Origin: Bacillota bacterium | GTDB lineage: Bacteria > Bacillota > UBA4882 > UBA8346 | NCBI GenBank assembly: GCA_029974635.1 | Contig: JARKQY010000021.1 | Span: 1 to 64,000, forward strand | Reading direction: 5' to 3' | Length of the DNA stretch: 64,000 nucleotides | Part shown: piece by piece, positions 30,982-48,316 of the stretch | How the letters are laid out: each line of letters starts with the position of its first letter | Position numbering within the stretch: position 1 is the first letter of the stretch | Translations under genes and position numbers: made by a program | Notes under the pieces: model-generated | The model's database searches: none | Seen by the model: only the letters and a program-made list of their open reading frames with translations | What the model was told of the DNA's origin: nothing

Positions 30982-31097
30982 ATCCCGATTTTTATCGTGA
31001 GATAATTACGATATAATAAGGAACCATCCTAAAAAATTCACGTTTATTTATCCGGAGAGGCCTAACTCTATTTGCCAAATTAAAATTAAGGGTGAAA

Positions 31098-31385
31098 ATG
31101 AACAAATTAGCCAACCAAAATTCATTCAAGCTTCTGGCAATCATTTTCCTTTGTTTGCTGCTACTCTCATTCCCTGTCCATGCCTCACTTACGGACGGCG
31201 GAAATCATTATTTCCTTTTGGGCCTCTTAATTGACGCAGTTCTTGCCGCCGCCATCCTCTTTACTTTTGCCCCGGTCTTTATTCTAATTGGAGTTGTTTC
31301 CTTCACTCCCATTGTCTTCACCGGAACAACGCCTGATAGCGGAATTCAGCGCCGCGCTCCCCCGGCAAACCTCTTGTTCTACTAA
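31098..31385 (+). CDS. Candidate RAPP-type translation-arrest peptide (secretion monitor)
   Basis: A 95-residue small exported or membrane protein. A signal sequence (LLAIIFLCLLLLSFPVHA, about residues 11-28) is followed by a long hydrophobic stretch (about 40-72) and a short tail. The tail reads SGIQRRAPPANLLFY, with RAPP at codons 31353-31364. RAPP is the core stalling motif of the ApdA and ApdP arrest peptides. GIQRRAPP also recalls GIRAGP in SecM, though the latter resemblance may be chance. The stop codon is 110 bases before a SecA-like gene. ATG 31098 is 5 bases from AAGGG. That it stalls ribosomes is inference; the protein is otherwise unrecognised. Confidence 0.75.
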   Translation: MNKLANQNSFKLLAIIFLCLLLLSFPVHASLTDGGNHYFLLGLLIDAVLAAAILFTFAPVFILIGVVSFTPIVFTGTTPDSGIQRRAPPANLLFY

Positions 31386-31492
31386 ACTTTAAGCGAGAAT
31401 AGCCCATATTTAGACAGGCAGCGAATCTTCCGATATTCGGCCTTATTTCCGGCTGTTCTCACGATTAATTTATAGAAGGAACTGGAGGGTTT
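31367..31492 (+). promoter_or_regulatory. RNA structure predicted to sequester the secA-like ribosome site
   Basis: AAACCTCTTGTTC (31367-31379), the last codons of the small gene, is complementary to GAACTGGAGGGTTT (31479-31492), which contains the Shine-Dalgarno of the SecA-like gene. There are 12 pairs with one wobble, one mismatch and one bulge. Inside it GAGAATAGCC (31395-31404) pairs with GGCTGTTCTC (31451-31460). A ribosome paused on RAPP would cover the left arm and free the start site, as in secM-secA. Confidence 0.65.
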
Positions 31493-31495
31493 ACC

Positions 31496-33850
31496 ATGTT
31501 AAAAGCCATTGCCAAACTGCAGCGCCTGGCTGATTTTCAACGCGCTCCGGTGCAGTTTGATTTCACTGCCTATCATTCGTTGCTTCAAGAAATAGATCAA
31601 TACCGCTTGGAATCCGAGTCCGATGCCAGGCTCCGGGAATATGTCACTGAGTTAAGAACCCAGGTTTTCAACAACATTCCACTAGAAAAACTGCTTTCAA
31701 AAACATATGCATTGGTGCGGGAGGTATCCCGGCGCATACTCGGCCTTCGTCCGTTTGACGTCCAGGTTTTGGCCGGGATTGCCATGCATCATGGCAAGAT
31801 CGTAGAAATGCTTACCGGCGAGGGAAAGACCCTGGCCGCGGTGCTGCCGGCCTGTTTAAACGGCTTGGCCGGGCAAGGAGTCCATATCCTGACCTTCAAT
31901 GATTATTTAGCCAAACGGGACGCACATTGGATGGGACCGGTATATCAGTTTCACGGATTGACCGTAGGTTATATTCAAAGCGGCATGAATCCGGCAGAAC
32001 GTAAAAAAGCTTATGACTGCGATATAACATACGTAACTGCCAAAGAGGCCGGATTCGATCATTTACGGAGCTTCCTTTGCTACGATAAGGCTGATCTGTT
32101 GCAACGGCCATTTCATTTTGCCATTATTGATGAGGCTGACTCCATTTTGATTGATGAAGGCCGGATTCCGTTAATCATTGCCGGGAACCGGCCGGTTCAA
32201 GAGAATAAACTGCGTCAAACTTTGGCGGAACTGGTCCTGAAGTTTATCCCGGAGATTGATTACGGATTAGATGAGTATCAGCGCAATGTATTTCTGACTG
32301 AATCCGGAATTGCCAAGGCTGAAGCTGGGTTGAATTGCGATAATTTATATAACGCCAATAATTTGAAATTATTGACGCTTTTGAATAACGCCCTTCACGC
32401 CGAAGTCTTGCTGCACCGGGATATTGACTACATCATCCGGGATGGCCGGATAGAGCTGGTGGATGAGTTTACCGGCCGGGTGGTGGAGAACCGGCATTGG
32501 CCGGATGGTTTGCAGGAAGCCATTGTAGCCAAGGAAGGTTTGGATGCTCAATGGGGGGGCCGAATATTGGGTTCAATAACAATGCAGCATTTCTTGAATG
32601 GCTACCCCAAAATTGCCGGAATGACAGGCACCGCCCAAGCTGCCGCCGACGAATTCAAGGAGTTTTATAACCTGGAAGTGGCGGTTATTCCGCCCAACCG
32701 TCCTTGCATCCGTATCGATGAACCGGACTTGATCTTTACGGATCAAAGAACCAAGCTGAAGGCCATTATTCAGGAAATTATCCGGGTTCATGCCGGCGGA
32801 CGCCCGGTACTGATTGGTACCGGGACGATCCGGGAGTCGGAAAGCCTGGCCGGTTTATTAGACCGTAGTGGCATTCCCTATCAATTATTAAACGCCAAAA
32901 ATGATGAACAGGAAGCCCAAATCATCGCTCAAGCGGGGAGACTCGGAGCGGTTACTATTTCCACCAACATGGCCGGGCGGGGAACGGATATCCGGTTGGG
33001 CGGAGCCGGTGCGACGGCGGAGGAATATGCTCGGGTTAAAGCTCTGGGAGGACTCTATATAATCGGCACCACTCATTTTGAAAGTACCCGGATTGATGCT
33101 CAACTCCGGGGCCGGGCCGGCCGTCAGGGAGATCCCGGCTCCAGCCGTTTTTTCATCAGTATGGAGGATGAGCTCATCTGCCGGTATGGAATTCGGGAAC
33201 TGCTCCCCTCAAAATACCGTCATTTGAAACAGGAGAACTTCATTGCTGAGCCGGCGTTGAACCGGCAGCTCCTGAGCGTCCAGCGAATCATCGCAGCCCA
33301 AAACTACGAAATCCGTAAAAGTTTATGGAAATATTCCTGGATAGTCGAGCAACAGCGCCGGGTAATTCACGAAAGACGCCGGAATGTTTTATTGGATCAT
33401 ACGGAACCTTGGTTGTTCCGCACCGCTTTGCCGGAGCGGTATACCCGGTTATCGGATATATATGGGGAAACAGTATTGCAACAAGCTGAAAAGTACGTTA
33501 CCTTATATCACATCGATAATCTCTGGGCTGATTTCTTGGAGGAGATCGCTCAAGTTCGCGAAGGCATTCACCTGGTCAGCTTAAGCGGCCGGAATCCTTT
33601 GGATGAATTCCACCGGTTGGTGACGGCGGCCTGCTTTGATCTGCAACAGCAAATCGATGCGCAGATTATTGCCACCCTTAGGGGCATTGAGATTACTGAC
33701 GCCGGTATTGATCTGGAGAAGGAAGGTTTACGGGGACCTTCAGCAACCTGGACATACCTGGTCAATGATGCTCCCTTTGGAGGAACATTGGCGATGATGC
33801 TGGCGCCGTTGATCAAGAAGCTGTTAAAACGGAGCGACGAACTGGAATAG
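31496..33850 (+). CDS. Divergent SecA-like preprotein translocase ATPase
   Basis: A SecA homologue of 784 residues, shorter than the usual 830-900. Walker A is MLTGEGKTLAA, and Walker B plus the next block read IIDEADSILIDEGRIPLIIAG (canonical SecA has DEVDSILIDEARTPLI). The pre-protein cross-linking region, the second helicase lobe (TNMAGRGTDIRLGG, LRGRAGRQGDPGSS) and a helical scaffold are all present. The C-terminal zinc finger (CXCX8CH) is absent and the tail ends at SDELE. Extra helices near the N terminus precede the motor. It may be an accessory SecA2-type motor or the sole SecA. The ATG follows GGAGGG within a predicted hairpin shared with the upstream RAPP peptide. Confidence 0.88.
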   Translation: MLKAIAKLQRLADFQRAPVQFDFTAYHSLLQEIDQYRLESESDARLREYVTELRTQVFNNIPLEKLLSKTYALVREVSRRILGLRPFDVQVLAGIAMHHGKIVEMLTGEGKTLAAVLPACLNGLAGQGVHILTFNDYLAKRDAHWMGPVYQFHGLTVGYIQSGMNPAERKKAYDCDITYVTAKEAGFDHLRSFLCYDKADLLQRPFHFAIIDEADSILIDEGRIPLIIAGNRPVQENKLRQTLAELVLKFIPEIDYGLDEYQRNVFLTESGIAKAEAGLNCDNLYNANNLKLLTLLNNALHAEVLLHRDIDYIIRDGRIELVDEFTGRVVENRHWPDGLQEAIVAKEGLDAQWGGRILGSITMQHFLNGYPKIAGMTGTAQAAADEFKEFYNLEVAVIPPNRPCIRIDEPDLIFTDQRTKLKAIIQEIIRVHAGGRPVLIGTGTIRESESLAGLLDRSGIPYQLLNAKNDEQEAQIIAQAGRLGAVTISTNMAGRGTDIRLGGAGATAEEYARVKALGGLYIIGTTHFESTRIDAQLRGRAGRQGDPGSSRFFISMEDELICRYGIRELLPSKYRHLKQENFIAEPALNRQLLSVQRIIAAQNYEIRKSLWKYSWIVEQQRRVIHERRRNVLLDHTEPWLFRTALPERYTRLSDIYGETVLQQAEKYVTLYHIDNLWADFLEEIAQVREGIHLVSLSGRNPLDEFHRLVTAACFDLQQQIDAQIIATLRGIEITDAGIDLEKEGLRGPSATWTYLVNDAPFGGTLAMMLAPLIKKLLKRSDELE

Positions 33851-36235: not shown

Positions 36236-38038
36236 ATGAGTGGCATACGGTCGTATTGTGTAATTTTACTTAGTATGGCATTGTTGGTTGCAGTTTCCGC
36301 CGGTTTTGTTTTTTCCGCCCCGGCAAGTCCGAAAAATTTCATAATTTATTTCCCCAATTGGGGAACTTATGGTGAAGCCCATAAAAACTTTACGGTTGGC
36401 AATATTCCCTGGGATAAAGTGACTGTCATCAATCATGCTTTCTTGGAAGTAAATAATGAATTTAAACTTGGTTTTACAGACGATTGGGCTGACTTGAGTA
36501 TTGTTTACCCCCATTCCGAAGAGGATGGGTTAAAAGGACATTTTGGCGAGTATAAGTATTATAAACAATTGTATCCTCAAGTAAAACTTCTGGCATCTGT
36601 GGGTGGATGGACCAGGGGTCATAATTTCCATGCCATGGCGTTAACCGCAGCAGGACGTCAAACCTTTGCCGACAGTTGTGTGGAATTTTTAGACAAATAT
36701 CCTTTCTTCGACGGAATTGACCTGGATTGGGAGTATCCCGGCGTGCACCGTGATCCGGATCCCGGGGATAAATACGATAAAGGCTGTCCCGGAGGACCAG
36801 AAGGAACTGTCAATTTCACCTTATTATTAAAAGACTTGCGGGAAACCTTCGACAAAAACGGCCTCACCGGGAAATTGCTTACGGCGGCCATTCCTGCCGG
36901 TTACGATAAACTAGCGCTGCAACAACCGAAAGAGTATCATAAATATCTTGATTTTATAAACGTGATGACTTATGACTTCCATGGCGCGGCGGATCCCGTT
37001 ACCGGCCATCTGTCACCCTTATATGCCAATCCGAAAGACACCGCTCCGCAAAAACCGGTAAATGTCAAGAAATACTATAATACTGATTACGCTATGAAAC
37101 TGTTGGTTAAACTTGGAGTACCCAAGGGAAAATTGAATGTGGGTTCTCCTTGGTACTCCCGTGGTTGGAAAAATGTAGATGGGAATACCGGTATTAACGG
37201 TTTATTCGCCAATGCCAACGGTGGCCCGGTGGGGAATTGGGATGATCCCGACAATCCAGGCGGTCAGAACTCGTACTTCCGACTGAAAGAAATGGAAACG
37301 CTGCCCGGTTTCGTAAAATACCGTGATGAAAAAAGCGGCGGGTCTCCTTGGCTGTATAATGCCGGTACTGGTGAGGTGTATACATATGAGGATGAAGTTT
37401 CCCTGGCAAAGCGGTGCGATTACATCAAGAAAAAAGGCTTCGGGGGGATTATCGTCTGGGAGATCACCGGGGATGACAAAGATTTTACCTTAACCAACCT
37501 GGTTTACAATAAATTGATTGGCTCAATTACAATACCGATTGCTGTAGATGATAAAAAAGGAGAGCAAGTGGTAGTAGATGATAAAAAAGGGGGGCAAGTG
37601 GTAAATGGAACTTTTGGTGCCGCTATAGGTAAGCCTTGGTTTTATTGGACCGAAGCTACTGCCAAACTCGCCCTTGAAAATGGCGAAGCCAAGATTTCCA
37701 TTAAAGATGAAGGCGCTGAGTATTGGAGTGTCCAATTTAATGCGGATGGAATTCGAGTGGCTAAAGATCAAACCTATGTTTTAAAATTCGATGCCCGCTC
37801 AACCGTTCCGAGAGATATTGTAGTCATAGTCGAACATAGAGTCCAACCGTTTGCCAAGCATTATGGGCCGGAAACTGTGCGTATTACAGATAAAATGACG
37901 ACGTATACTTATGAATACACCCAGAAAGAAGTGAGTGATGATGATTCCCATATAGTATTCGGTCTGGGTAAAGTTGGCAATAAAGTGGGTAAGGCCCATG
38001 ATGTCTTTATCGATAATGTGAGTTTTACATCAAAATAA
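36236..38038 (+). CDS. Secreted GH18 chitinase with C-terminal CBM4_9-like module
   Basis: An exported endo-chitinase candidate. The signal peptide spans residues 1-30. The GH18 barrel (about 32-425) has the catalytic signature DGIDLDWE with Asp159, Asp162, Asp164 and acid Glu166, plus SVGGW on strand 3 and MTYDFHG on strand 6. A short linker made of two near-identical 10-residue units (VDDKKGEQVV type) leads to a CBM4_9-like module (about 456-600). That module ends FIDNVSF, the same type found in neighbouring GH16 and stand-alone proteins. ATG 36236 has GGGAGGAGAG upstream. It opens the polysaccharide locus and its substrate is probably fungal or arthropod chitin. Confidence 0.93.
   Translation: MSGIRSYCVILLSMALLVAVSAGFVFSAPASPKNFIIYFPNWGTYGEAHKNFTVGNIPWDKVTVINHAFLEVNNEFKLGFTDDWADLSIVYPHSEEDGLKGHFGEYKYYKQLYPQVKLLASVGGWTRGHNFHAMALTAAGRQTFADSCVEFLDKYPFFDGIDLDWEYPGVHRDPDPGDKYDKGCPGGPEGTVNFTLLLKDLRETFDKNGLTGKLLTAAIPAGYDKLALQQPKEYHKYLDFINVMTYDFHGAADPVTGHLSPLYANPKDTAPQKPVNVKKYYNTDYAMKLLVKLGVPKGKLNVGSPWYSRGWKNVDGNTGINGLFANANGGPVGNWDDPDNPGGQNSYFRLKEMETLPGFVKYRDEKSGGSPWLYNAGTGEVYTYEDEVSLAKRCDYIKKKGFGGIIVWEITGDDKDFTLTNLVYNKLIGSITIPIAVDDKKGEQVVVDDKKGGQVVNGTFGAAIGKPWFYWTEATAKLALENGEAKISIKDEGAEYWSVQFNADGIRVAKDQTYVLKFDARSTVPRDIVVIVEHRVQPFAKHYGPETVRITDKMTTYTYEYTQKEVSDDDSHIVFGLGKVGNKVGKAHDVFIDNVSFTSK
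37544..37603. repeat. Two tandem 30-bp units in the GH18 linker
   Basis: Copies at 37544-37573 and 37574-37603 differ at two positions and encode a duplicated 10-residue linker unit. They are in frame and look recent. Confidence 0.85.
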
Positions 38039-38054
38039 TTTATGATTTAAAAAA

Positions 38055-38104
38055 AAGGGGGTGTCGCAAAACTGCCTTTTTAACAGTTAGCGGCACTCCC
38101 TTTT
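38055..38104 (+). terminator. Terminator after GH18 gene
   Basis: A long hairpin, GGGGGTGTCGC with GCGGCACTCCC (a few mismatches), is followed by TTTT. Confidence 0.65.
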
Positions 38105-38160
38105 CCATCCAAAAAACTAAATGTCCAGCTAAATTAAGTGATAATTTCATTAACTCAAAA

Positions 38161-38210
38161 GAGGCTGTTGTAAATAAGCTTTCAAGTTTATTTTGCAACA
38201 GTCCCTTTTT
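38161..38210 (+). terminator. Second hairpin terminator downstream of GH18
   Basis: GGCTGTTGTAAATAA pairs with TTTATTTTGCAACAGTCC around a short loop, then TTTTTATTTT. Confidence 0.7.
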
Positions 38211-38296
38211 ATTTTGGTTGGTTATCTATTTTTTGATGGTAATGCCGTAATAGATATCAAAAATAATAGAGACTTACCGATGAAAAAAATATAGTG

Positions 38297-38433
38297 TATA
38301 ATATTAATTATTCGTGCTGGGATTCTGTGCAAGTAAACTTTTTTAAGGCCAAGAACCACAATATTTTGTATTAGGTAATATTACTATATACTAAATATGC
38401 TTCGAAAGCCTATTACCCCGCACAGAATCCTAG
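38297..38433 (+). promoter_or_regulatory. Promoter and structured 5' leader of the large GH16 gene
   Basis: A -10 box TATAAT (38297-38302) precedes a near-perfect inverted repeat: CTGGGATTCTGTGC (38317-38330) with its partner (38420-38433, one wobble), enclosing 89 bases. Inside, a GCTTtcgAAAGC hairpin is visible. The ribosome site begins 17 bases after the second arm. Such a leader could act as an RNA switch or attenuator; no known riboswitch consensus was recognised. Confidence 0.55.
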
Positions 38434-38465
38434 TTAGCTTGAAAGAAAAAGGAGTGAATTTTGGG

Positions 38466-41141
38466 ATGAAGAAGTTTTTATGGGTATTGCTTATTGTTTC
38501 GTTAGTTCTTTCCGTTTCCGTATCATTAGTTGCCAAGGATGATGAATGGGAATTAGTATGGAAGGATGAATTTGAAGGCCCGAAGATCGATACTTCCAAA
38601 TGGAATTTTATCGAAAAAGGGGATGGTTTCGGCAACAACGAGTTGCAGTTTTACACCGGCAGACCGGAAAATGCGTACATAGAAAATGGTTGCCTGATCT
38701 TAAGGGCCATACCGGAAGATTATCAAGGAAATGAATATACCTCCGCCAAATTGACCACCCAAAATAAAGGAGATTGGACCTACGGCAGGTTTGAGATCAA
38801 AGCCAAAATGCCTATTGGACAGGGGCTTTGGCCGGCCATCTGGATGATGCCCACCGATGAAAAAATGTATGGCGGTTGGCCCAATTGCGGCGAGATCGAT
38901 ATTATGGAGTATCTCGGCCATAAGCCTGATACCGTATATGGAACGGTTCATTATGGCATACCTCATTCCCAATCCCAGGGAGAGCCTTATATCTTGACGA
39001 ATGGCAAGAAATTTAGCGATGATTTTCATGTTTTCGGCCTGGAATGGCTGCCGGGGGAGATCCGCTGGCTAATTGACGGCAAAGTATATCAGACCCAGAA
39101 GTATTGGTATAGCCGTGCCCCCAAAGAAGCTACCGATTTTACCTACCCGGCGCCCTTTGACCGGAATTTTTACCTGCAATTGAACCTGGCGGTGGGCGGC
39201 AATTGGCCGGGCGATCCCGACGAAACCACCGTATTTCCGCAAACCATGGCCGTAGATTATGTCAGGGTATATAAGTATACCGGGAAACTTCCCGAGGTTG
39301 AAGATATAACTTATGTTGTGCCCGAAAGTTCCGCCGGTCCGAGAACACCCATCGGAATGGGCAATTACGTTTATAACGGCAGGTTTGATCAGGGTAAAAA
39401 ACGCCTGGGTTATTGGGATTTAAGGGTCGCCAATGACGCCGCCGCTTCCATGGCGGTTGGAGTTACCCCTGAAGAGCGGGAATGCCGGATTACCATAAAA
39501 AAACCGGGTAAAGGGCCGGAATCGGTTCAACTGGTGCAGGAGCGGTTTCCCCTTGAAAATGATAACGAGTATACCTTAAAGTTTGACGCCCGGAGCATCA
39601 AAAACCGGACGATTCAAGTTGCGCTCCGGAAATCGGGTTCGAAGAGTCCCACATATCTACTGGAAAATGTAACTCTAAATGCAACAATGAAGAGTTTTTC
39701 TTATAATCTTACCATGAAGGAACCGACGGATCACGGGGTTGAACTGCAGTTCAACGTAGGAGGCAACACCGATGATGTTATTTTGGATAATATCAGCTTC
39801 GTCAAGTATCGTAAGCCTATGACGGTTAATGGCTTTACCGTTATTAACGGTCCGGATTTCTATGAAATGGAAGGAGTCCAAGCTGAAAACTGCGCTGAAG
39901 GCGGTCAAAACGTGGGCTGGATCGACACCGGTGATTGGATGAAATATGATATCGACGTAAATCAAGCCGGAAATTATCTGGCCATGTTCAGGGTGGCCAG
40001 CCAACCCGGTGGATGGGCTTCCGCTCAATTGGATACTCAAACTCCAGAAACCATATTTTGGAAAGCGGATATAATGACCGGTGCCTGGCAAAATTGGACC
40101 ACTATATCGACCAATATTTACCTAACTAAAGGGACTCATTCGTTATTTTTCGCCGGGGATCGGGTGAATCTGCACTGGATAAAATTAACTCCGAACCTGC
40201 TCAAGAACGGTACTTTCGATAAAAATACCGATACCTGGGGGAGTTTGGCCGCGGCTGCGGAAGGCGTGAAACAAACGCTAACTGCGGAACAAGGAAAGCT
40301 AAAAATCGATCTTAGTTCCGATGGGAATCAGTCTTCAGCTGCACAGGTATTTCAGGGAAATCTTAAGATTGAAAAGGGAAAAAATTACCGGGTCAGCTTC
40401 GACGCCAGTTCTTCCGTTTCTCGGGAGATCCAGGTTCTGGTCGAACAAAGCGGCGGGAATCGTGTAAAGTACGCGGAGGTTAAGACAATTCAACTCACTC
40501 CGGAGACAAAACCATACTCCCTGGAGTTCTCGATGACGGCGGAAACTGACTCCGCGGCCCGTCTGCTGTTTGCCCTGGGGAAAATGAATACCAAGGTGGG
40601 GGCCAAACATACCATATATATTGATAACGTATGTTTAGGCCAGATTGACGCAGTAACGGAAAAGCCTGCAAAACCCGTTGAAGTTGTTGCCGTTGATCAG
40701 ATTAAAGGCGGAACATTTGATAGCGATGATTATGATTGGCTATTCTGGACAGGAGCATCGGCATTCAATATAGTTGAGAAAGGTGAAGCCAAAATAGTCA
40801 TCAATCATGCCGGCAATGAAACCTGGAGTGTTCAATATGTCCAGGAGGACTTGCAGTTGGTCAAAGGACAGACTTACGTCATCAAATTTGACGCTCGCTC
40901 AACGATTGCCCGTGATATTCAAGTAATCATGGAGTTTAACGGCGCTCCGTATACTAAGTATTTCGGCCCCAAGGCTGTCAGTCTGACAACCAAGATGAAT
41001 ACTTATACCTATGAGTTCACCATGGACGCCGCAACCGATTTCAAAGCGCATCTGGTATTTGCCCTGGGTAAGGTTGGAAATACACCCAGTTCGTCTCATA
41101 ACGTGTTTATTGACAATGTAAGTTTAACGCTGAAAAAATAA
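38466..41141 (+). CDS. Secreted multidomain GH16 beta-glucanase (laminarinase type)
   Basis: An 891-residue exported enzyme. The signal peptide is residues 1-24. The GH16 domain (about 28-278) carries nucleophile Glu143, Asp145 and acid/base Glu148 in GEIDIME, as in endo-beta-1,3-glucanases. It is followed by a CBM4_9-like module (about 298-448), a CBM6 (about 455-575, FYEMEGVQAENCAEGGQNVGWID) and two more CBM4_9-like modules (about 578-728 and 742-891). The last closely resembles the stand-alone proteins downstream. The ATG at 38466 has GGAGTGA 8 bases upstream; a longer reading from 38397 crosses a leader hairpin. Four binding modules suggest attack on insoluble glucan. Confidence 0.93.
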   Translation: MKKFLWVLLIVSLVLSVSVSLVAKDDEWELVWKDEFEGPKIDTSKWNFIEKGDGFGNNELQFYTGRPENAYIENGCLILRAIPEDYQGNEYTSAKLTTQNKGDWTYGRFEIKAKMPIGQGLWPAIWMMPTDEKMYGGWPNCGEIDIMEYLGHKPDTVYGTVHYGIPHSQSQGEPYILTNGKKFSDDFHVFGLEWLPGEIRWLIDGKVYQTQKYWYSRAPKEATDFTYPAPFDRNFYLQLNLAVGGNWPGDPDETTVFPQTMAVDYVRVYKYTGKLPEVEDITYVVPESSAGPRTPIGMGNYVYNGRFDQGKKRLGYWDLRVANDAAASMAVGVTPEERECRITIKKPGKGPESVQLVQERFPLENDNEYTLKFDARSIKNRTIQVALRKSGSKSPTYLLENVTLNATMKSFSYNLTMKEPTDHGVELQFNVGGNTDDVILDNISFVKYRKPMTVNGFTVINGPDFYEMEGVQAENCAEGGQNVGWIDTGDWMKYDIDVNQAGNYLAMFRVASQPGGWASAQLDTQTPETIFWKADIMTGAWQNWTTISTNIYLTKGTHSLFFAGDRVNLHWIKLTPNLLKNGTFDKNTDTWGSLAAAAEGVKQTLTAEQGKLKIDLSSDGNQSSAAQVFQGNLKIEKGKNYRVSFDASSSVSREIQVLVEQSGGNRVKYAEVKTIQLTPETKPYSLEFSMTAETDSAARLLFALGKMNTKVGAKHTIYIDNVCLGQIDAVTEKPAKPVEVVAVDQIKGGTFDSDDYDWLFWTGASAFNIVEKGEAKIVINHAGNETWSVQYVQEDLQLVKGQTYVIKFDARSTIARDIQVIMEFNGAPYTKYFGPKAVSLTTKMNTYTYEFTMDAATDFKAHLVFALGKVGNTPSSSHNVFIDNVSLTLKK

Positions 41142-41153
41142 TTTAGGCTTGTT

Positions 41154-41196
41154 AAACCTGTAGTCCGGCGAAAGCCGGACTACAGGTTTGGATTTT
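41154..41196 (+). terminator. Perfect 16-bp hairpin with GAAA loop
   Basis: AAACCTGTAGTCCGGC (41154-41169), loop GAAA, then the exact complement (41174-41189). Only a weak T-run follows, so besides ending transcription it may be a repeated extragenic palindrome. Confidence 0.65.
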
Positions 41197-41287
41197 GTGT
41201 AATCGTTATTTTCTTGTCAATGGATTAATAGGCACCATTGAAATACGGATTTTCAATCAAAAAAAAATTTTTATGGCAGTTTTATAT

Positions 41288-41358
41288 CGTTAACATTAAC
41301 GAAAATTATTCCTATGAAAGTCAAATGGATTGCTTTTGAATTGTGTAAACGTTATAAT
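41288..41358 (+). promoter_or_regulatory. Promoter with LacI/CcpA-like operators before the CBM-only gene
   Basis: TTGCTT (41330-41335), 17 bases, then TATAAT (41353-41358). TGTAAACGTTATAA (41343-41356) lies between and over the -10 box and matches the CcpA cre consensus at 13 of 14 positions. A perfect 14-bp dyad CGTTAACATTAACG (41288-41301) lies upstream. Sugar-responsive repression is likely. Confidence 0.6.
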
Positions 41359-41473
41359 AAATGGTAAAGTAGTTGGTTTCAATTTTTGAAAGGGGGGAAC
41401 CGGGAGTTTACAGAATTTTAGAAGCGAACTTAATGAAAAATTTTGAAAGAAAAATTGAAAGGGGAGTCTCGCG

Positions 41474-42016
41474 TTGTTGAAAAAAATCTTTACGTTATTG
41501 GCAATCATTGCTTTGGTTGTAGTACCGGTTTGTTCCGCGGCTGAAATAGCCGAGAGCGAACAGGTTAAGAACGGAACGTTCGATACTAATTATGCTCCTT
41601 GGGATTTTATGATCGAGGCCGGTGGCGATGCCAATGCATCCGTTGTGAATGGTGAGTTAAAAATCCATGTGGCGAGTATTGGAAAGGAATACTGGAGTGT
41701 CCGGATCACCCACGAGAAGATCCAGTATGTAAAAGGGCAGACTTATGTTGTCAAGTTTGACGCCCGTTCTACAACACCCGGAACGATTGCTTTAGTGGCC
41801 GAAGCCAATTTTGAACCCTGGAACAACACTTATCTCAGGGTGCTAGATGTCGCGCTCACCGATAAGATGGCTACCTATACTTATGAATTTACCATGAAAA
41901 ATCCGCGTGACAACAGAGCCCGTCTGGTGTTTTGCTTTGGAAAATGCGATGAAAATAGTCCCAAGGGAGAACATGATATCTATCTGGATAATATCAGCTT
42001 AACAGTGAAAAAGTAA
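41474..42016 (+). CDS. Secreted stand-alone CBM4_9-like carbohydrate-binding protein
   Basis: A signal peptide (about 1-23, ending CSAAE) is followed by one binding module of about 150 residues and nothing else. Shared features with the modules on the GH18 and GH16 enzymes are VKNGTFDTNYAPW at the start, YVVKFDARSTTPG, TYTYEFTM and a final IYLDNISLTVKK. No catalytic domain is present. It could coat glucan or chitin, act as a cell-surface or released lectin, or help enzymes bind. TTG 41474 (or 41477) has GGGGAG upstream. Confidence 0.85.
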   Translation: MLKKIFTLLAIIALVVVPVCSAAEIAESEQVKNGTFDTNYAPWDFMIEAGGDANASVVNGELKIHVASIGKEYWSVRITHEKIQYVKGQTYVVKFDARSTTPGTIALVAEANFEPWNNTYLRVLDVALTDKMATYTYEFTMKNPRDNRARLVFCFGKCDENSPKGEHDIYLDNISLTVKK

Positions 42017-42037
42017 TTCCGTCTCAAATCATTATTA

Positions 42038-42072
42038 AAGCCTGCTGCCACTTTGGCCTGCAGGTTTTTAAA
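42038..42072 (+). terminator. Terminator after first CBM-only gene
   Basis: CCTGC (42041-42045) with GCAGG (42060-42064), extended by weaker pairs, then TTTTTAAATTT. Confidence 0.6.
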
Positions 42073-42265
42073 TTTACATTTGATTATATGTTTGCGTTTT
42101 CCATTTTTTCAACCATTAATTCCAAAAAAAGAAGAAGTTGTTTTTTCAAATAAAAATAGATATAATAGAAAAGAGAGCTTTTCATCTTGTAATAAGGAGG
42201 GATTGGTTGATTCTTTTGGTTACACTAACATTTCCAGATTAATCAAATTTAAGGGGGAGATTTAT

Positions 42266-42787
42266 TTGGGCAAGAAAGTTTTAGGATTGTTGATTTTGGC
42301 TATTTGCACCATGTTCTTAGTAATGCCGATTCATGCTGAAGAGCTCATTCAAAACGGTACTTTTGATGAAAATACTGATAACTGGGTACATTGGGCAGGT
42401 GGCGGCGGGGATGTTTCTATAGCGGCGGAAAACGGTGAAGCGAGACTAAAAATCAACAATACGGGTAATGAAGTCTGGACTGTTCAGTTCAGACAGAATA
42501 TCTCAATAGTTGCCGGCACTACCTATGTTATTAAATTTGATGCCCGTTCAACCACTCCCAGAACCATTCGTTTTATGCTGGAAAGAAGCGGGGGAGCCCA
42601 GCCTTATCCAGTCTACTATGGTCCTGTAGATGTAGACTTAACAACCGAAATGGCAACCTATACTTTCGAGGGCACTGTAGAAATCACCGAACCCAATGCT
42701 CATCTCATTTTTTGTCTTGGCAAAGTAGGTAGAATCGGTAGAGTACATACGGTTTACTTAGACAATGTCAGTATAACTACGAAATAA
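42266..42787 (+). CDS. Second secreted stand-alone CBM4_9-like protein
   Basis: A 173-residue exported binding protein with a signal peptide (1-26, ending MPIHAEE), then one module with NGTFDENTDNWVHW, YVIKFDARSTTPR and VYLDNVSITTK. It is a paralogue of the protein just upstream and of the modules at the C termini of the GH18 and GH16 enzymes. The start is TTG 42266 with GGGGGAGA 5 bases upstream. A longer frame from 42053 runs through the preceding terminator and is rejected. It probably binds the same polysaccharide. Confidence 0.83.
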   Translation: MGKKVLGLLILAICTMFLVMPIHAEELIQNGTFDENTDNWVHWAGGGGDVSIAAENGEARLKINNTGNEVWTVQFRQNISIVAGTTYVIKFDARSTTPRTIRFMLERSGGAQPYPVYYGPVDVDLTTEMATYTFEGTVEITEPNAHLIFCLGKVGRIGRVHTVYLDNVSITTK

Positions 42788-43150
42788 GTATTTTGTTTTT
42801 ATTGATTGTATTAGTTGAAATAAGTTTTGCATAAATATCAAAGCCTGATATTATTCGGCTTAATAATATTAGTGGTTATTCGCGCAATTAGCGATTAATA
42901 GAAAGATTTAGAAACCACGAATGGCCGCTAATGGCCACGAATAAAGTTCAATTATTTAATTTAACTATCATAACAGTTAATCGCCTGCGGTCAGAATTGA
43001 CAGCAGGTTTTTTATGCAATTTCAAATACAAAATCATACACTTTAAAGTGTAGCTAGCACGAGACCCTTGTGATTAAAATAAAAACTGAAATGATGGAGC
43101 CTCATATCATAACCATATTATTAATTATCCCGGAGCGCTCACGGTTTTAT
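42788..43150. other. Intergenic region with terminator, short repeat and palindrome
   Basis: The region holds a degenerate direct repeat (CCACGAATGGCC, then GGCCACGAAT at about 42915-42945). A terminator follows at 42984-43014 (GCCTGC / GCAGG then TTTTTTAT). A perfect 16-bp palindrome, TACACTTTAAAGTGTA, lies at 43037-43052. No gene is visible. Confidence 0.55.
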
Positions 43151-43200
43151 TTGACAACACTTTGGTGGTATAATATAATAAACTTATAAAAACGTTTACA
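43151..43200 (+). promoter_or_regulatory. Sigma-A promoter and operator of the first lacI-type gene
   Basis: A consensus TTGACA (43151-43156), 17-bp spacer and TATAAT (43174-43179) are followed by AAAAACGTTTACA (43188-43200), a LacI/CcpA-type half-palindrome with central CG placed at the transcription start. The position fits autorepression. Confidence 0.75.
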
Positions 43201-43213
43201 TTGAGGGGTCCAA

Positions 43214-44224
43214 ATGGCGCTTACCATTAAAGACGTGGCAAAAAAGGCCGGGGTATCCATCGCCACTGTTTCCAGAGTGTTGAACAACAAGGATCGGGTG
43301 AAGGATGAAACCCGGGAAAAAATTATGGCCATTGTTAATGAAATGAATTATGTCACCAATTTTTCCGCCAAAACGTTGCGCCAGAATAAATCGAATGTTA
43401 TCGGAGTCATTGTGCAAGGGGTATCCATTTCATTTTACGCGGAAATTGTCAAAGGAATTGAAAATAAGGCCAATGAATACGATCTCAGGTTAATCGTCTG
43501 TGATTCCGAGAATAGTGTTGAAAAAGAAAAAGATTTTGTAAGATTTTTATATGATCGCAGTGTCGACGGTATGATATTTATTGTTCCCCAAATGCCCTCT
43601 GAAGATATTGTCAAGATACATCAAGATAACTATCCCATCGTAGTCTTTGGCAGCAACATGCAAGAATATAATATTCCTTCCATTACCGTTGATAACCGGC
43701 TGGGGGCCATTCTGGCCGTCCGGCATTTATATTCCCACGGTTTCACAAAAATCGCTTTCATTGGCAGTATCGAAGATGAACATAATAGCGACCGCCGTGA
43801 AAGATTGCAAGGCTACCGGGATGCTTTGAAGGAGTGTCAACTCGAGCTATTACCCGAATACATTGAAAACGGGTTGTATTACGAAGAGACCGCCAGTGGG
43901 GCTTTTATCCGTCTGATGAAACTTCCCAACCCGCCGGATGCCGTCTTTTGTGGTAACGACGAAATGGCTTTGGGAGTGCTCAAAACTGCCAAGAAGATGG
44001 GCATTAGCATACCCGAACAAATTGGCTTGGTGGGATTTGATAACATTCGGATCTGCCAATATACCAGCCCGGCATTGACCACTATCAATCAGCCAACCCA
44101 TAATATCGGTGTTTTGTGTTGTGAAAAGTTGATATACAGTCTCAATGACAAAGGAAAGGATGCTAAGTATACCAATTTGGTTTTACAGCCGGAGTTAATT
44201 ATCCGTGAATCGTGTGGTTGTTGA
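43214..44224 (+). CDS. LacI/GalR family transcriptional regulator
   Basis: 336 residues. The N-terminal helix-turn-helix (1-55, TIKDVAKKAGVSIATVSRVLNNKDRV) and hinge helix are followed by a periplasmic-binding-like sugar domain ending LIIRESCGC. The sugar ligand is not readable but is presumably a glucan breakdown product. A strong promoter with an overlapping AACGTT operator lies upstream, so autorepression is likely. The downstream GH30 and GH81 genes, which have similar CG-centred operators, are the probable regulon. A second regulator at 60.9 kb is a paralogue with an extra domain. Confidence 0.93.
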   Translation: MALTIKDVAKKAGVSIATVSRVLNNKDRVKDETREKIMAIVNEMNYVTNFSAKTLRQNKSNVIGVIVQGVSISFYAEIVKGIENKANEYDLRLIVCDSENSVEKEKDFVRFLYDRSVDGMIFIVPQMPSEDIVKIHQDNYPIVVFGSNMQEYNIPSITVDNRLGAILAVRHLYSHGFTKIAFIGSIEDEHNSDRRERLQGYRDALKECQLELLPEYIENGLYYEETASGAFIRLMKLPNPPDAVFCGNDEMALGVLKTAKKMGISIPEQIGLVGFDNIRICQYTSPALTTINQPTHNIGVLCCEKLIYSLNDKGKDAKYTNLVLQPELIIRESCGC

Positions 44225-44360
44225 ATTTAATCAGCTTAATTAATGTATTGACGTTTTATGAAATATACCTTAATATTAATGAGTAAGTAAATTATTCCAA
44301 AAACAAGCTAATTTATAACTTTGGAGAGTTAGCGGAGAAAATAATTGGTTTATGGTTATT

Positions 44361-44410
44361 TAAAAACGATTTTATACATAATTTAAAACATATTGCTGTT
44401 GACGTCAACA
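44361..44410 (+). promoter_or_regulatory. Operator candidates before the GH30 gene
   Basis: AAAAACGATTTTAT (44362-44375) resembles the LacI-type sites at 43188 and 62581. TGTTGACGTCAACA (44397-44410) is a perfect 14-bp palindrome. Both lie within about 100 bases of the start codon. Confidence 0.55.
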
Positions 44411-44462
44411 ATTTATGCAATGTCATAAATTCAAATCTAATATTAATAAAAAGGGGTACATC

Positions 44463-45821
44463 ATGGCTAGCAATGAATCGAGGAACAAGATTAAAGTAGT
44501 TCAGACAGCAAAGGAAACCGGAGATAAATTAACCCCGAAGCCGGATCTGCAGTTTCAGGTTGGTCCATCCGGAAAAACAACGGTTATTGAAATCAATAAC
44601 CAAAAAAAGTATCAGGAAATATTAGGTTTTGGAGGAGCCTTTACGGAAGCTACCGCATTCACGATTGCCAAGATGAGCCCGGAAAAACAGGCCGAAATGA
44701 TGAATGCCTATTTTCATCCTGAACAGGGTTTGAAGTATTCGTTATGCCGCACTCATATGAATAGTTGCGATTTTAGTTTGGGTAATTATTCATGTGATCC
44801 GGTTCCGGGGGATGTTGAACTGAAATTTTTTAATATTGACAGGGACAAACAATATCTCATCCCCATGATTAAAGAAGCCAATAAAATCAAGGGGACACCG
44901 CTGGATATCTTTATTTCCCCCTGGAGTCCTCCCGGCTGGATGAAAACTAATCACCAAATGAATCACGGCGGGAAATTACGGGAGGAATACCGGTCCACGT
45001 GGGCGGCTTTCTTTGTTAAATTTATAAAATCTTATGAAGCGGAGGGCATTCCGATTTGGGGACTATCGGTGCAAAACGAGCCGGATGCGACCCAGACTTG
45101 GGATTCGTGCCGTTACACCGCCGAGGAGGAAAGGGATTTTATCAAGGAGCACCTGGGCCCCATATTAAAACGGGAAGATCTGGCTTCTAAAAAAATCATA
45201 GCCTGGGACCATAACCGGGATTTGCTATATGACCGGGCAAAGACTATTTTATCAGATAAACAGGCTGCTGAGTATGTTTGGGGAATGGGATTTCATTGGT
45301 ATTCCGGAGAACAGTTCGATAATGTGGCCAAGACCCATGATATGTTTTCTGACAAAGCGCTTATATTTACCGAAGGTTGCTGGGAAGGCGGCGTAAAACT
45401 ACACCAGTGGGATCGCGGCGAGCGTTACGGACACCATATAATTGGTGACCTGAATCACTGGACCAACGCCTGGGTGGATTGGAACATGGTTTTGGATCAT
45501 ACCGGCGGCCCGAATCATGCGGGCAATTTCTGCGACGCTCCCATAATCGCCGACCCAAATATAGATACGGTTTATTATCAAACTTCATTTTACTATATCG
45601 GACATTTTAGTAAGTTTATTATGCCGGGAGCGCGGCGCATCGATAGCCATTCCAATGATCGTCACCTGGAAACCACCGCCTTTGAAAATCCGGATGGCAG
45701 TATTGTGGTGGTAGTATTAAACTGTTCCGATAAGCATCATGAATTTCAGTTGAAAATGGATCAAAAAATCGTTGATTTATCCAGTTTGCCCCATTCCATT
45801 GCAACTTACATAATTTCGTGA
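44463..45821 (+). CDS. GH30 family glycosidase, intracellular (beta-1,6-glucanase or beta-glucosidase type)
   Basis: A 452-residue retaining glycosidase. The N-terminal GFGGAFTEATAF is typical of GH30. Acid/base Glu206 lies in SVQNEPDATQ and nucleophile Glu304 in FTEGCWEGG; WSPPGWMKTN is conserved. The C-terminal beta domain ends SLPHSIATYIIS. There is no signal peptide, so it should act in the cytoplasm on imported oligosaccharides. The GH30_3 (beta-1,6-glucan) branch fits the locus, but subfamily is by eye. ATG 44463 follows AAGGGG. It lies 3' of a LacI gene, with dyads in the gap. Confidence 0.9.
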   Translation: MASNESRNKIKVVQTAKETGDKLTPKPDLQFQVGPSGKTTVIEINNQKKYQEILGFGGAFTEATAFTIAKMSPEKQAEMMNAYFHPEQGLKYSLCRTHMNSCDFSLGNYSCDPVPGDVELKFFNIDRDKQYLIPMIKEANKIKGTPLDIFISPWSPPGWMKTNHQMNHGGKLREEYRSTWAAFFVKFIKSYEAEGIPIWGLSVQNEPDATQTWDSCRYTAEEERDFIKEHLGPILKREDLASKKIIAWDHNRDLLYDRAKTILSDKQAAEYVWGMGFHWYSGEQFDNVAKTHDMFSDKALIFTEGCWEGGVKLHQWDRGERYGHHIIGDLNHWTNAWVDWNMVLDHTGGPNHAGNFCDAPIIADPNIDTVYYQTSFYYIGHFSKFIMPGARRIDSHSNDRHLETTAFENPDGSIVVVVLNCSDKHHEFQLKMDQKIVDLSSLPHSIATYIIS

Positions 45822-45837
45822 ATCAAGGTTGCATGTC

Positions 45838-45946
45838 TAGTATGGCGTTTTCTACATAACTATTATGAAAAATTAACCAAGATGAACGCCATACTTTGGT
45901 AGAACGTTCATTCTGAATTGTAACGTTATTTTAGAGAACGTTCTAC
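45838..45946. repeat. Palindromic MITE-like repeat, copy C (two hairpins)
   Basis: Hairpin 1 is TAGTATGGCGTT (45838-45849) with AACGCCATACT (45885-45895), near-identical to the copy at 905-963. Hairpin 2 is a perfect 11-bp repeat, GTAGAACGTTC (45899-45909) with its complement (45936-45946), matching the copy at 36137-36182. So one locus has both halves of the family in tandem. Confidence 0.75.
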
Positions 45947-45978
45947 TAGAACTTAAACATTTGGATAAGATATTCTTT

Positions 45979-46009
45979 AATTAGGATGGATTAAACCGTC
46001 CTAATTTTG
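45979..46009 (+). terminator. Terminator after the GH30 gene
   Basis: TTAGGATGG (45981-45989) with CCGTCCTAA (45996-46004), one wobble, then TTTT. It overlaps a possible TTG start at 46007, which argues against that start. Confidence 0.65.
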
Positions 46010-46054
46010 CATATCAAGGCTTTAGGGATAGAAGAAGGAGCATTCTTAGAAACC

Positions 46055-48316
46055 ATGGACATTGTTCATATAGGTTCGGGCAGTTTTAAAGCCGGTGATA
46101 CCGGTTGTTATCTTCCCGTATCCCCGCTTTTTAAAACCAAAAACCTGAAAACACCCATACCGTCCAACGGGTGGTGGCAATCGATCCTTGTCAAACAATT
46201 AAGTGATGGAATCGTTTCATTGCCGTTCAGGCTTCAGTATACATCTCGCGGCCTAAGTATAATGAATCCCGGCGCCGGATTTGTCAACCATGATCAAACG
46301 ACGGTCATTACTGAAGGTAAGCCCGACCTTTACCTGGCGGTTGAAAATATTAACGTACCGCAAATGGTTGCCAGGGTTTGTGAATACGGTGACTGGTCCG
46401 TAACGGCGGTATTATCGGACGATGACACCGCCAAGATGAAAACTACATTTGTTAAAGGAGCGCCCTATATCTTCAATGAGTTTGGCGATGATTGTACGCC
46501 GTATATTTTTCTAAATGGAATCAGCACCCGGATTTTTGATGATGGGAATAACAGCATTCTCATTTCCGACAATGACTCGATTTTCACGGACCATGTCGGA
46601 TTAGAAATAAGCAATACCGATGCCGCCGGGTTCACCTATGTGAGATGGTATGGCATATTTTCTCCGGAGGGCAGTGTCTTTAAGCGAGTCGCCGATAAAA
46701 TTATAATTCAAATGGCTGGTAGGGAAAATTATCTGTCCCTAGCAACCTTGACCGCGGATAATGATTTATATTATTTTTATCAACATGCATACGCATTTGT
46801 AAAGGATACTAAAGTAAACTACAACTGTGATGATGCCTCAGCGTTTGTGACGACAACCTTCAAGGTTACAACCCAGGTTAAACGCTCCGGATTTTCCGCG
46901 GATACCTTGATGTGTCTTTTCCCTCATCAATGGAAATCAACCGCCGTTTCATTAACCGGGCTGGATTATTCGTCCATTCGCGGGAGACTGAAGGTTCACG
47001 AAGGGAATTCATTTGCCACCCAAAATATCTTCCCCGGGATTATTCCGCAATTTGGCGAACCGGTTGGTTCGGAAGGATATAACCGGACAGACACGGTCAG
47101 TTATATCAAAAACTTAATTGCAATGCTGCAAAATGACTATTTGATAGATGATCCTTATTGGCAAGGCAAAAATCTGCATCCGTTAACCCAAGCGGTGCTC
47201 ATAGCGGATCAACTGGAGGAGATCGTTTTACGCGATGAGTGCCTGTCCTTGCTGAAAAATATCTTAACGGACTGGTTTACCTATCATGGCGATCCATCAG
47301 AAAAGCCGCGTTTTTTATATTATTCGGGGGAATGGGGCGCCATGCAGGGAAACGGCGGTGATCATGGCATGGCCGTCTGGATGTCCGACCATCATTATGT
47401 TTGGGGTTACTTTATCTATGCAGCGGCGATTCTGGCGGCTTATGATAAAGAGTTTTTAACCGGTTACGGCGGAATCGTCGAGCATTTGATCCGGGATGTG
47501 GGGAATCCTTGCCGGGATGATTCCATGTATCCTTTTGTAAGAGGTTTTGACGTATATGAAGGCCATTCATGGGCCGGCGGTTACGGGGATAATTACGACA
47601 GCAATAATCAGGAAGCTGCATGTGAAGGCTTGCTGGCTTATGTGGGTGAATATTTTTGGGGATTGATTACCAATAATAAAGCATATTGCGATTTAGGAAA
47701 GTGGGTCTATACCCTAGGGTTTAATTCGATTCTGCAGTATTGGTTTGATATCGACGGGGAGAATTGGTTAACGAATTATCCCCACAGAGTTGCCGGCCAA
47801 GTTTGGGGCAGCCGGTATGTTTATGACACATATTTTTCGAAGGATCCCAATTGTATTTATGGTATTCATTGGCTTCCGGTGGCTCCATATATTACATTTT
47901 ACGGTCTTTGGCCGGAAGCCGCGCGCAAAATATATAATGACTTTTTAGCGGAGAAAGGCGGGCCGGAAGATGGCTGGTATCATATTATTTGGCCTTTCCA
48001 GTCGCTAGGAGATCCAAAAGGGGCCATTGCCAAATGGGATCCGGACTTGATAGCCGGGGATGATAAAAACGGCCAAAAAGAGTGGTCAAATACTTATTGG
48101 TTTATTCATAATATGAATGCCTGCGGATACCGAACGCAAGAAATCTGGTCTCCCAATTGGAGTTGTTATCAAGTGTTCCGGAAAAACGGCCAATACACGG
48201 CCCACATTTGGAATCCCACCGGCGCAGCTCAAAGTGTCGTTTTCCGGGACACCACCGGAAACATTGTAGGATTTGTAACGGTTCCTGCAATGAAAACCAT
48301 TACTGCCAATTTATAG
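46055..48316 (+). CDS. GH81 endo-beta-1,3-glucanase, apparently intracellular
   Basis: An inverting laminarinase-type enzyme of about 753 residues. GH81 hallmarks are PIPSNGWWQS near the N terminus, GGDHGMAVWMSDHHYVWGYFIYAAA, then FVRGFDVYEGHSWAGG, and NNQEAACE with the likely catalytic Glu520 and Glu524. There is no signal peptide and no binding module, so it probably works inside the cell, unlike most secreted GH81s. The ATG at 46055 is 14 bases from AAGGAG. A TTG at 46007 would sit in a terminator T-run and is rejected. It follows GH30 by 233 bases that contain a palindromic repeat. Confidence 0.88.
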   Translation: MDIVHIGSGSFKAGDTGCYLPVSPLFKTKNLKTPIPSNGWWQSILVKQLSDGIVSLPFRLQYTSRGLSIMNPGAGFVNHDQTTVITEGKPDLYLAVENINVPQMVARVCEYGDWSVTAVLSDDDTAKMKTTFVKGAPYIFNEFGDDCTPYIFLNGISTRIFDDGNNSILISDNDSIFTDHVGLEISNTDAAGFTYVRWYGIFSPEGSVFKRVADKIIIQMAGRENYLSLATLTADNDLYYFYQHAYAFVKDTKVNYNCDDASAFVTTTFKVTTQVKRSGFSADTLMCLFPHQWKSTAVSLTGLDYSSIRGRLKVHEGNSFATQNIFPGIIPQFGEPVGSEGYNRTDTVSYIKNLIAMLQNDYLIDDPYWQGKNLHPLTQAVLIADQLEEIVLRDECLSLLKNILTDWFTYHGDPSEKPRFLYYSGEWGAMQGNGGDHGMAVWMSDHHYVWGYFIYAAAILAAYDKEFLTGYGGIVEHLIRDVGNPCRDDSMYPFVRGFDVYEGHSWAGGYGDNYDSNNQEAACEGLLAYVGEYFWGLITNNKAYCDLGKWVYTLGFNSILQYWFDIDGENWLTNYPHRVAGQVWGSRYVYDTYFSKDPNCIYGIHWLPVAPYITFYGLWPEAARKIYNDFLAEKGGPEDGWYHIIWPFQSLGDPKGAIAKWDPDLIAGDDKNGQKEWSNTYWFIHNMNACGYRTQEIWSPNWSCYQVFRKNGQYTAHIWNPTGAAQSVVFRDTTGNIVGFVTVPAMKTITANL

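Follow-up and report, generated by a model that had tools for sequence, protein, structure and literature searches.

The window analysed here, a stretch of 64,000 nucleotides from a Bacillota draft genome, carries on its forward strand a small open reading frame at 31098-31385 (95 codons and a stop) followed by a SecA2-type gene at 31496-33850. On the basis of its translation, its match to a profile of small CxxC/RAPP proteins and its codon-position GC, the small frame is proposed to be an arrest leader of the SecA2 gene. A likely ribosome-binding site, AAGGG (31088-31092, forward strand), lies 5 nt ahead of the ATG at 31098. The preliminary description had reported a 95-residue protein with a signal sequence and a second hydrophobic stretch, ending SGIQRRAPPANLLFY, and the translation bears this out. 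Judged by eye, an N-terminal signal-type hydrophobic stretch, FKLLAIIFLCLLLLSFPVHA, occupies residues 10-30 (31125-31187), with a possible cleavage site after VHA (VHA-S), and the second stretch was placed at residues 38-74 (31209-31319) by alignment with homologues. The RAPP codons, CGC GCT CCC CCG, are found at 31353-31364 as had been described, and are followed by six codons (A-N-L-L-F-Y) and the stop. Approximately 59 residues separate the signal from the arrest site, which exceeds the 30-residue criterion of PMC10987492 and falls between the medians published there for YidC-type leaders (54) and short SecM-type leaders (71).

Codon-position GC was 0.53/0.38/0.52 in the leader and 0.58/0.38/0.54 in the SecA2 gene, and the leader looks coding because its values agree with those of the neighbouring genes. 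Searches of the leader ORF against Pfam and NCBIfam gave no match. RAPP, RGPP and RSPP were counted in all ORFs of at least 250 aa in any frame of the window, and none of the three occurred in these 17,669 residues.

The downstream gene encodes an accessory translocation ATPase of 784 aa, preceded by the Shine-Dalgarno (SD) sequence GGAGGG (31484-31489, forward strand) and separated from the leader stop by a 110 nt spacer. Its product scored 815.4 bits against TIGR04221 (NCBIfam SecA2, cut-off 725), fell outside the well-supported housekeeping SecA clade in a 27-sequence tree and lacks the C-terminal zinc tail CPCGSGKKYKKCCG, which is present in the SecA of all four class relatives sampled. 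The gene had previously been called SecA-like; it does belong to the SecA family, as an accessory SecA2 of the TIGR04221 type and not as the housekeeping SecA. Housekeeping secA was not found in the 88%-complete draft assembly of the organism. This probably reflects an assembly gap over the secA-prfB stretch, because in a relative (G009) secA is followed by the gene of a release factor, presumed to be prfB, and the only release factor found in the window genome (contig C19) scores below the prfB cut-off and appears, from a following gene that looks like prmC, to be prfA.

RNA folding placed the SD of the SecA2 gene in a stem whose 5' arm (31370-31380) lies within the last codons of the leader and whose 3' arm (31478-31488) overlaps the SD. 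A pairing of 31367-31379 with 31479-31492 had been noted beforehand; the pairing is real, with its limits shifted to 31370-31374/31484-31488 and 31376-31380/31478-31482, and the inner 10-bp stem of 31395-31404 with 31451-31460 was returned by folding with exactly the limits given earlier. The ribosome is halted with the first proline of RAPP in the P site in ApdA/ApdP (PMC10951233) and CruR (PMC12992588). For the window leader the same register is predicted: the P site would hold Pro88 (31359-31361) and the A site Pro89 (31362-31364), so that the stalled ribosome would cover the mRNA to approximately 31374-31375. With the 3' edge of the ribosome at this position, the computed cost of opening the SD fell from 8.9 to 3.1 kcal/mol, a drop of 5.8 kcal/mol. 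The leading edge was also scanned in 4-nt steps, and the lowest cost of this coarse scan was obtained at 31374, which is the expected edge of the footprint. When the intergenic region was dinucleotide-shuffled, 0/500 variants gained as much as 5.8 kcal/mol, and when the six-codon tail was recoded synonymously, 2/500 did. The whole 161-nt fold (31340-31500) was not unusually stable (z -1.19); the unusual feature is the stall-specific switch, not general fold stability. Attenuation by an intrinsic terminator was rejected, as no such site was found in the region scanned.

BLAST with the leader alone gave weak matches (E 0.02-0.03), two of which, in members of the same family, end in RAPP (G007, ...NRAPPIAFLFY; G002, ...FRAPPVQNPANEYLN). 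A profile built from the window leader and these two proteins found two paralogues on contig C44 of the window's own genome (G000) and one in G005, and a further profile added two more relatives in G002. The relatives with both CxxC and RAPP are thus seven small membrane proteins of approximately 92-97 aa from four genomes of the same family: L106 1489-1773 (-) and L107 1474-1782 (G000:C44:17688-17966) in the window genome, L102 1468-1761 (-) in G005, L003 507-794 (-) in G007, and L004 1408-1767, L118 1501-1779 (reverse strand) and L122 1468-1779 in G002. CxxC and RAPP are 43 residues apart in 7/7 relatives and RAPP is invariant in 8/8 homologues, of which the window leader is the only one to precede a sec gene.

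Searched genome-wide with a seven-member profile that excluded the window copy, the window ORF was found with E=2.4e-7, and hhalign gave E=3.5e-7. With the first five-member profile, the window ORF outscored all pattern-preserving shuffles that kept RAPP (0/2000 matched). Two relatives owed their discovery to a resemblance to the window ORF, so a second five-member profile was made without them; 0/3000 RAPP-keeping shuffles scored as high on it as the window ORF, although three of its five members still came from a profile that had contained this ORF. With the five-member profiles the window ORF also scored far above approximately 2,150 control ORFs. When RAPP was masked, 1% of hydrophobic-pattern shuffles equalled the score of the window ORF, so RAPP itself accounts for much of the homology signal. 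Kinship of the window leader to the CxxC/RAPP leaders is likely, not certain. Judging from the alignments, both cysteines of the CxxC that all seven relatives have were lost from the window leader; the aligned positions read YFLL or FLLG and are cysteine-free, and the single cysteine left lies within the signal stretch. What had been described as a possible new arrest peptide is retained as a probable RAPP leader, not as an isolated invention: it would be a diverged CxxC/RAPP member resembling CruR/DUF2946.

Genes for ABC-3 metal permeases, ZnuA, a FUR-family regulator and ArsP_1/DUF1980 permeases were found among the neighbours of six of the seven relatives, and the seventh (L107) precedes an M16 metallopeptidase gene, with 240 nt between the two that fold into long hairpins. 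The relatives are probably zinc-uptake counterparts of the copper leaders CruR and CutF, the metal being read from the neighbouring genes only, and it is from this family, linked to genes for the uptake of a metal (probably zinc), that the window leader appears to descend. A stall-dependent SD switch was sought in the CxxC relatives and was not found, so the SD masking belongs to the SecA2 locus and not to the leader family. Four of the seven relatives match the C-terminal half of DUF2946 (PF11162) up to its RAPP end, with E 0.003-0.035, below the cut-off; the PF11162 search gave no match to the window copy. Across 399 genomes of the phylum, PF11162 returned scattered weak or frame-broken matches, which were treated as chance. 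Weak matches in G342 (L103), apparently a frame running antisense to a proB-like gene, and in G227 and G034, with stops inside the matched stretch, were taken as spurious, and those at G007:C395 and G005:C15 were discarded since no RAPP ORF opened there.

Among known leaders, CruR of Bordetella pertussis (DUF2946) stalls at RAPP (PMC12992588), and mutation of its CxxC to SxxS strongly impairs metal control (PMC9426467). CruR and the CxxC/RAPP relatives share the CxxC, the C-terminal RAPP and a fixed spacing between them (45 residues in CruR against 43). The window leader differs from CruR in that it has the C-terminal RAPP but no CxxC, precedes SecA2 and stays below the Pfam cut-off; for want of the CxxC and of a sufficient score it was not filed as DUF2946. 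CutF of Rhodobacter capsulatus is an exported metal-sensing leader that opens the stem hiding the next SD (PMC9973294). An exported nascent leader (predicted for the window), a proline-rich end and an SD-hiding stem are common to both, whereas CutF senses copper via CxxxC and the window leader has no metal motif and precedes SecA2. SecM of E. coli likewise has the SD of a secA-family gene in a stem opened by a stalled ribosome, the window version being a computed one. It differs in its arrest sequence (FxxxxWIxxxxGIRAGP against the RAPP of SGIQRRAPPANLLFY) and in its target (SecA against SecA2), and no sequence kinship between the two was seen.

RAPP uORFs of sec genes stall ribosomes (PMC10987492). 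These uORFs and ApdA/ApdP (PMC10987492, PMC10951233) resemble the window leader in their N-terminal hydrophobic signal, their C-terminal RAPP and the export gene directly downstream. As in the RQH leaders defined in PMC10987492, the window leader is the uORF of a sec gene and encodes a small protein without a family match, with residues 10-30 as its N-terminal signal or transmembrane segment, again by eye. Unlike the sec-linked RQH and orphan RAPP uORFs, it stands before an accessory SecA2 gene and is likely akin to CxxC/RAPP leaders. RAPP/RGPP uORFs are reported to be absent in many Gram-positives including Bacillota (PMC12992588), whereas the window leader sits in a genome in which Spo0A is present and which is therefore of the endospore-forming Bacillota type.

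We consider it rather probable that 31098-31385 is a cis-acting RAPP arrest leader which comes from a metal-linked lineage and has been reassigned to SecA2, and that membrane targeting or export is what likely ends its arrest. The N-terminal hydrophobic signal would bring the nascent chain to the membrane or the Sec machinery, and the ribosome would, going by the motif, stall at RAPP. According to the computed folds, ribosome-free mRNA would keep the SecA2 SD paired with the last codons of the leader, and a ribosome halted at RAPP would cover 31370-31375 and free the SD. Pulling during insertion or export would end the arrest, after which the stem would re-form and SecA2 translation would drop; slow targeting or export would prolong the arrest, and SecA2 would be made. 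The earlier proposal of a peptide that raises SecA-like synthesis by arrest is supported in part: the computations favour a RAPP leader whose predicted stall unmasks the SD, with accessory SecA2 as the gene it would control. The leader has lost its metal site, so membrane targeting or export has probably taken the place of metal as its input. Going by the sequence, this input may be export, YidC-dependent insertion or something else. More tentatively, a metal-sensing leader may have been duplicated, lost its cysteines, gained the SD-masking stem and become an export or insertion monitor for the accessory SecA2.

The same RAPP leader with SD unmasking could still take a metal or envelope signal as its input, with the tail-less SecA2 as a possible stand-in under zinc shortage. 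This is suggested by the homologous leaders, which lie mostly beside ZnuA, ABC-3, FUR-family and ArsP_1-DUF1980 genes, and by the missing zinc tail, by which the window SecA2 differs from the SecA of 4/4 class relatives. However, SecA2-type proteins are generally without this tail, the window locus has no metal genes, and the leader, with its one cysteine left in the signal stretch, does not have the CxxC that matters in CruR (PMC9426467), so that a metal or envelope input seems unlikely. It is also quite unlikely that the leader stalls constitutively or just couples translation, leaving SecA2 at a fixed low level without regulation: the cost is lowest with the ribosome stalled at RAPP, a motif that proteomes strongly avoid (PMC12992588) and that is invariant in the leader family, and the leader retains its membrane signal. 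Such coupling would draw on the scan, in which every leading edge from 31370 to approximately 31394 reduced the cost of opening the SD, so that passage and termination would also open it briefly.

SecA2-type genes were sought outside the window genome. Among the 29 genomes of the class searched, only the window genome has one and the 28 others do not; the leader-SecA2 pair is found in one species only. The preliminary description had looked to a recurrence of the same small gene before SecA-like genes. Most of the 14 remote SecA2-type loci examined were without a RAPP uORF, and the expectation was borne out in part by one of them, in a Spirochaetaceae MAG (L059; DAOWEB010000062.1; uORF 2251-2490), which has RSPP and SD pairing. 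Its hydrophobic uORF ends TSPRSPPQR, 51 nt upstream of a SecA2-type gene, and its arrest codons pair with the SD. A stall would cut the computed opening cost from 7.6 to 2.0 kcal/mol, a gain equalled by 2/300 and 3/300 shuffles at a locus that was chosen by scanning many loci for RAPP-like motifs. RSPP partly permits arrest (PMC12992588). The locus is like that of the window in its hydrophobic uORF ending R-S-P-P, its SD masked by arrest codons and its SecA2-type gene, and differs from it in the uORF sequence, in having RSPP and in its phylum. As a second candidate arrest leader it is supportive of the arrest reading of the window, not conclusive.

A different conserved small membrane ORF, without RAPP and with the C-terminal pattern SLDI..FF..LMLLI.FH..K, directly precedes SecA2 at three loci (L047, L049 and L098; Heliobacteria-like and Hungateiclostridiaceae), where it is perhaps a SecA2 partner or another leader. 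The SecA2 of a further locus, L108, is near-identical to that of this group. These ORFs lend some colour to the view that the window leader, too, is a small membrane partner or substrate of SecA2 in which RAPP and the pairing are incidental, which is very unlikely in view of the shuffle results, the family-wide conservation of RAPP and the combination of RSPP and pairing in L059. CruR-like transcriptional control by Rho-dependent termination between leader and SecA2, for which the CruR precedent (PMC9426467) and the CxxC relatives without an SD switch could be cited, is highly improbable, since the SD switch in the window is strong and specific to the stall, and no intrinsic terminator was found in the scanned region.

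No account of an arrest peptide for SecA2 was apparent in open-access full texts: two papers matched and neither seems to deal with SecA2, the match in PMC10987492 looking like secA with a superscript reference 24. An arrest leader at 31098-31385 would, if true, be the first known case of SecA2 controlled by an arrest peptide. The regulation of SecA2 is poorly understood, and the window locus makes one case testable. It would also place RAPP control in a lineage where surveys report it to be mostly absent (PMC12992588), a lineage in which the CxxC/RAPP relatives likewise lie. If the proposed change of input is true, RAPP leaders can change their input yet keep their arrest output, and the leader family, two of whose CxxC members share a genome with the window leader, offers a concrete case for how the releasing signal changes. 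Downstream of the SecA2 gene, 36236-48316 is occupied by a run of predicted secreted carbohydrate enzymes (GH16 with CBMs, GH30 and GH81), to which a chitinase-like ORF at 36236, so named by sequence, also belongs; these enzymes are possible clients of SecA2.
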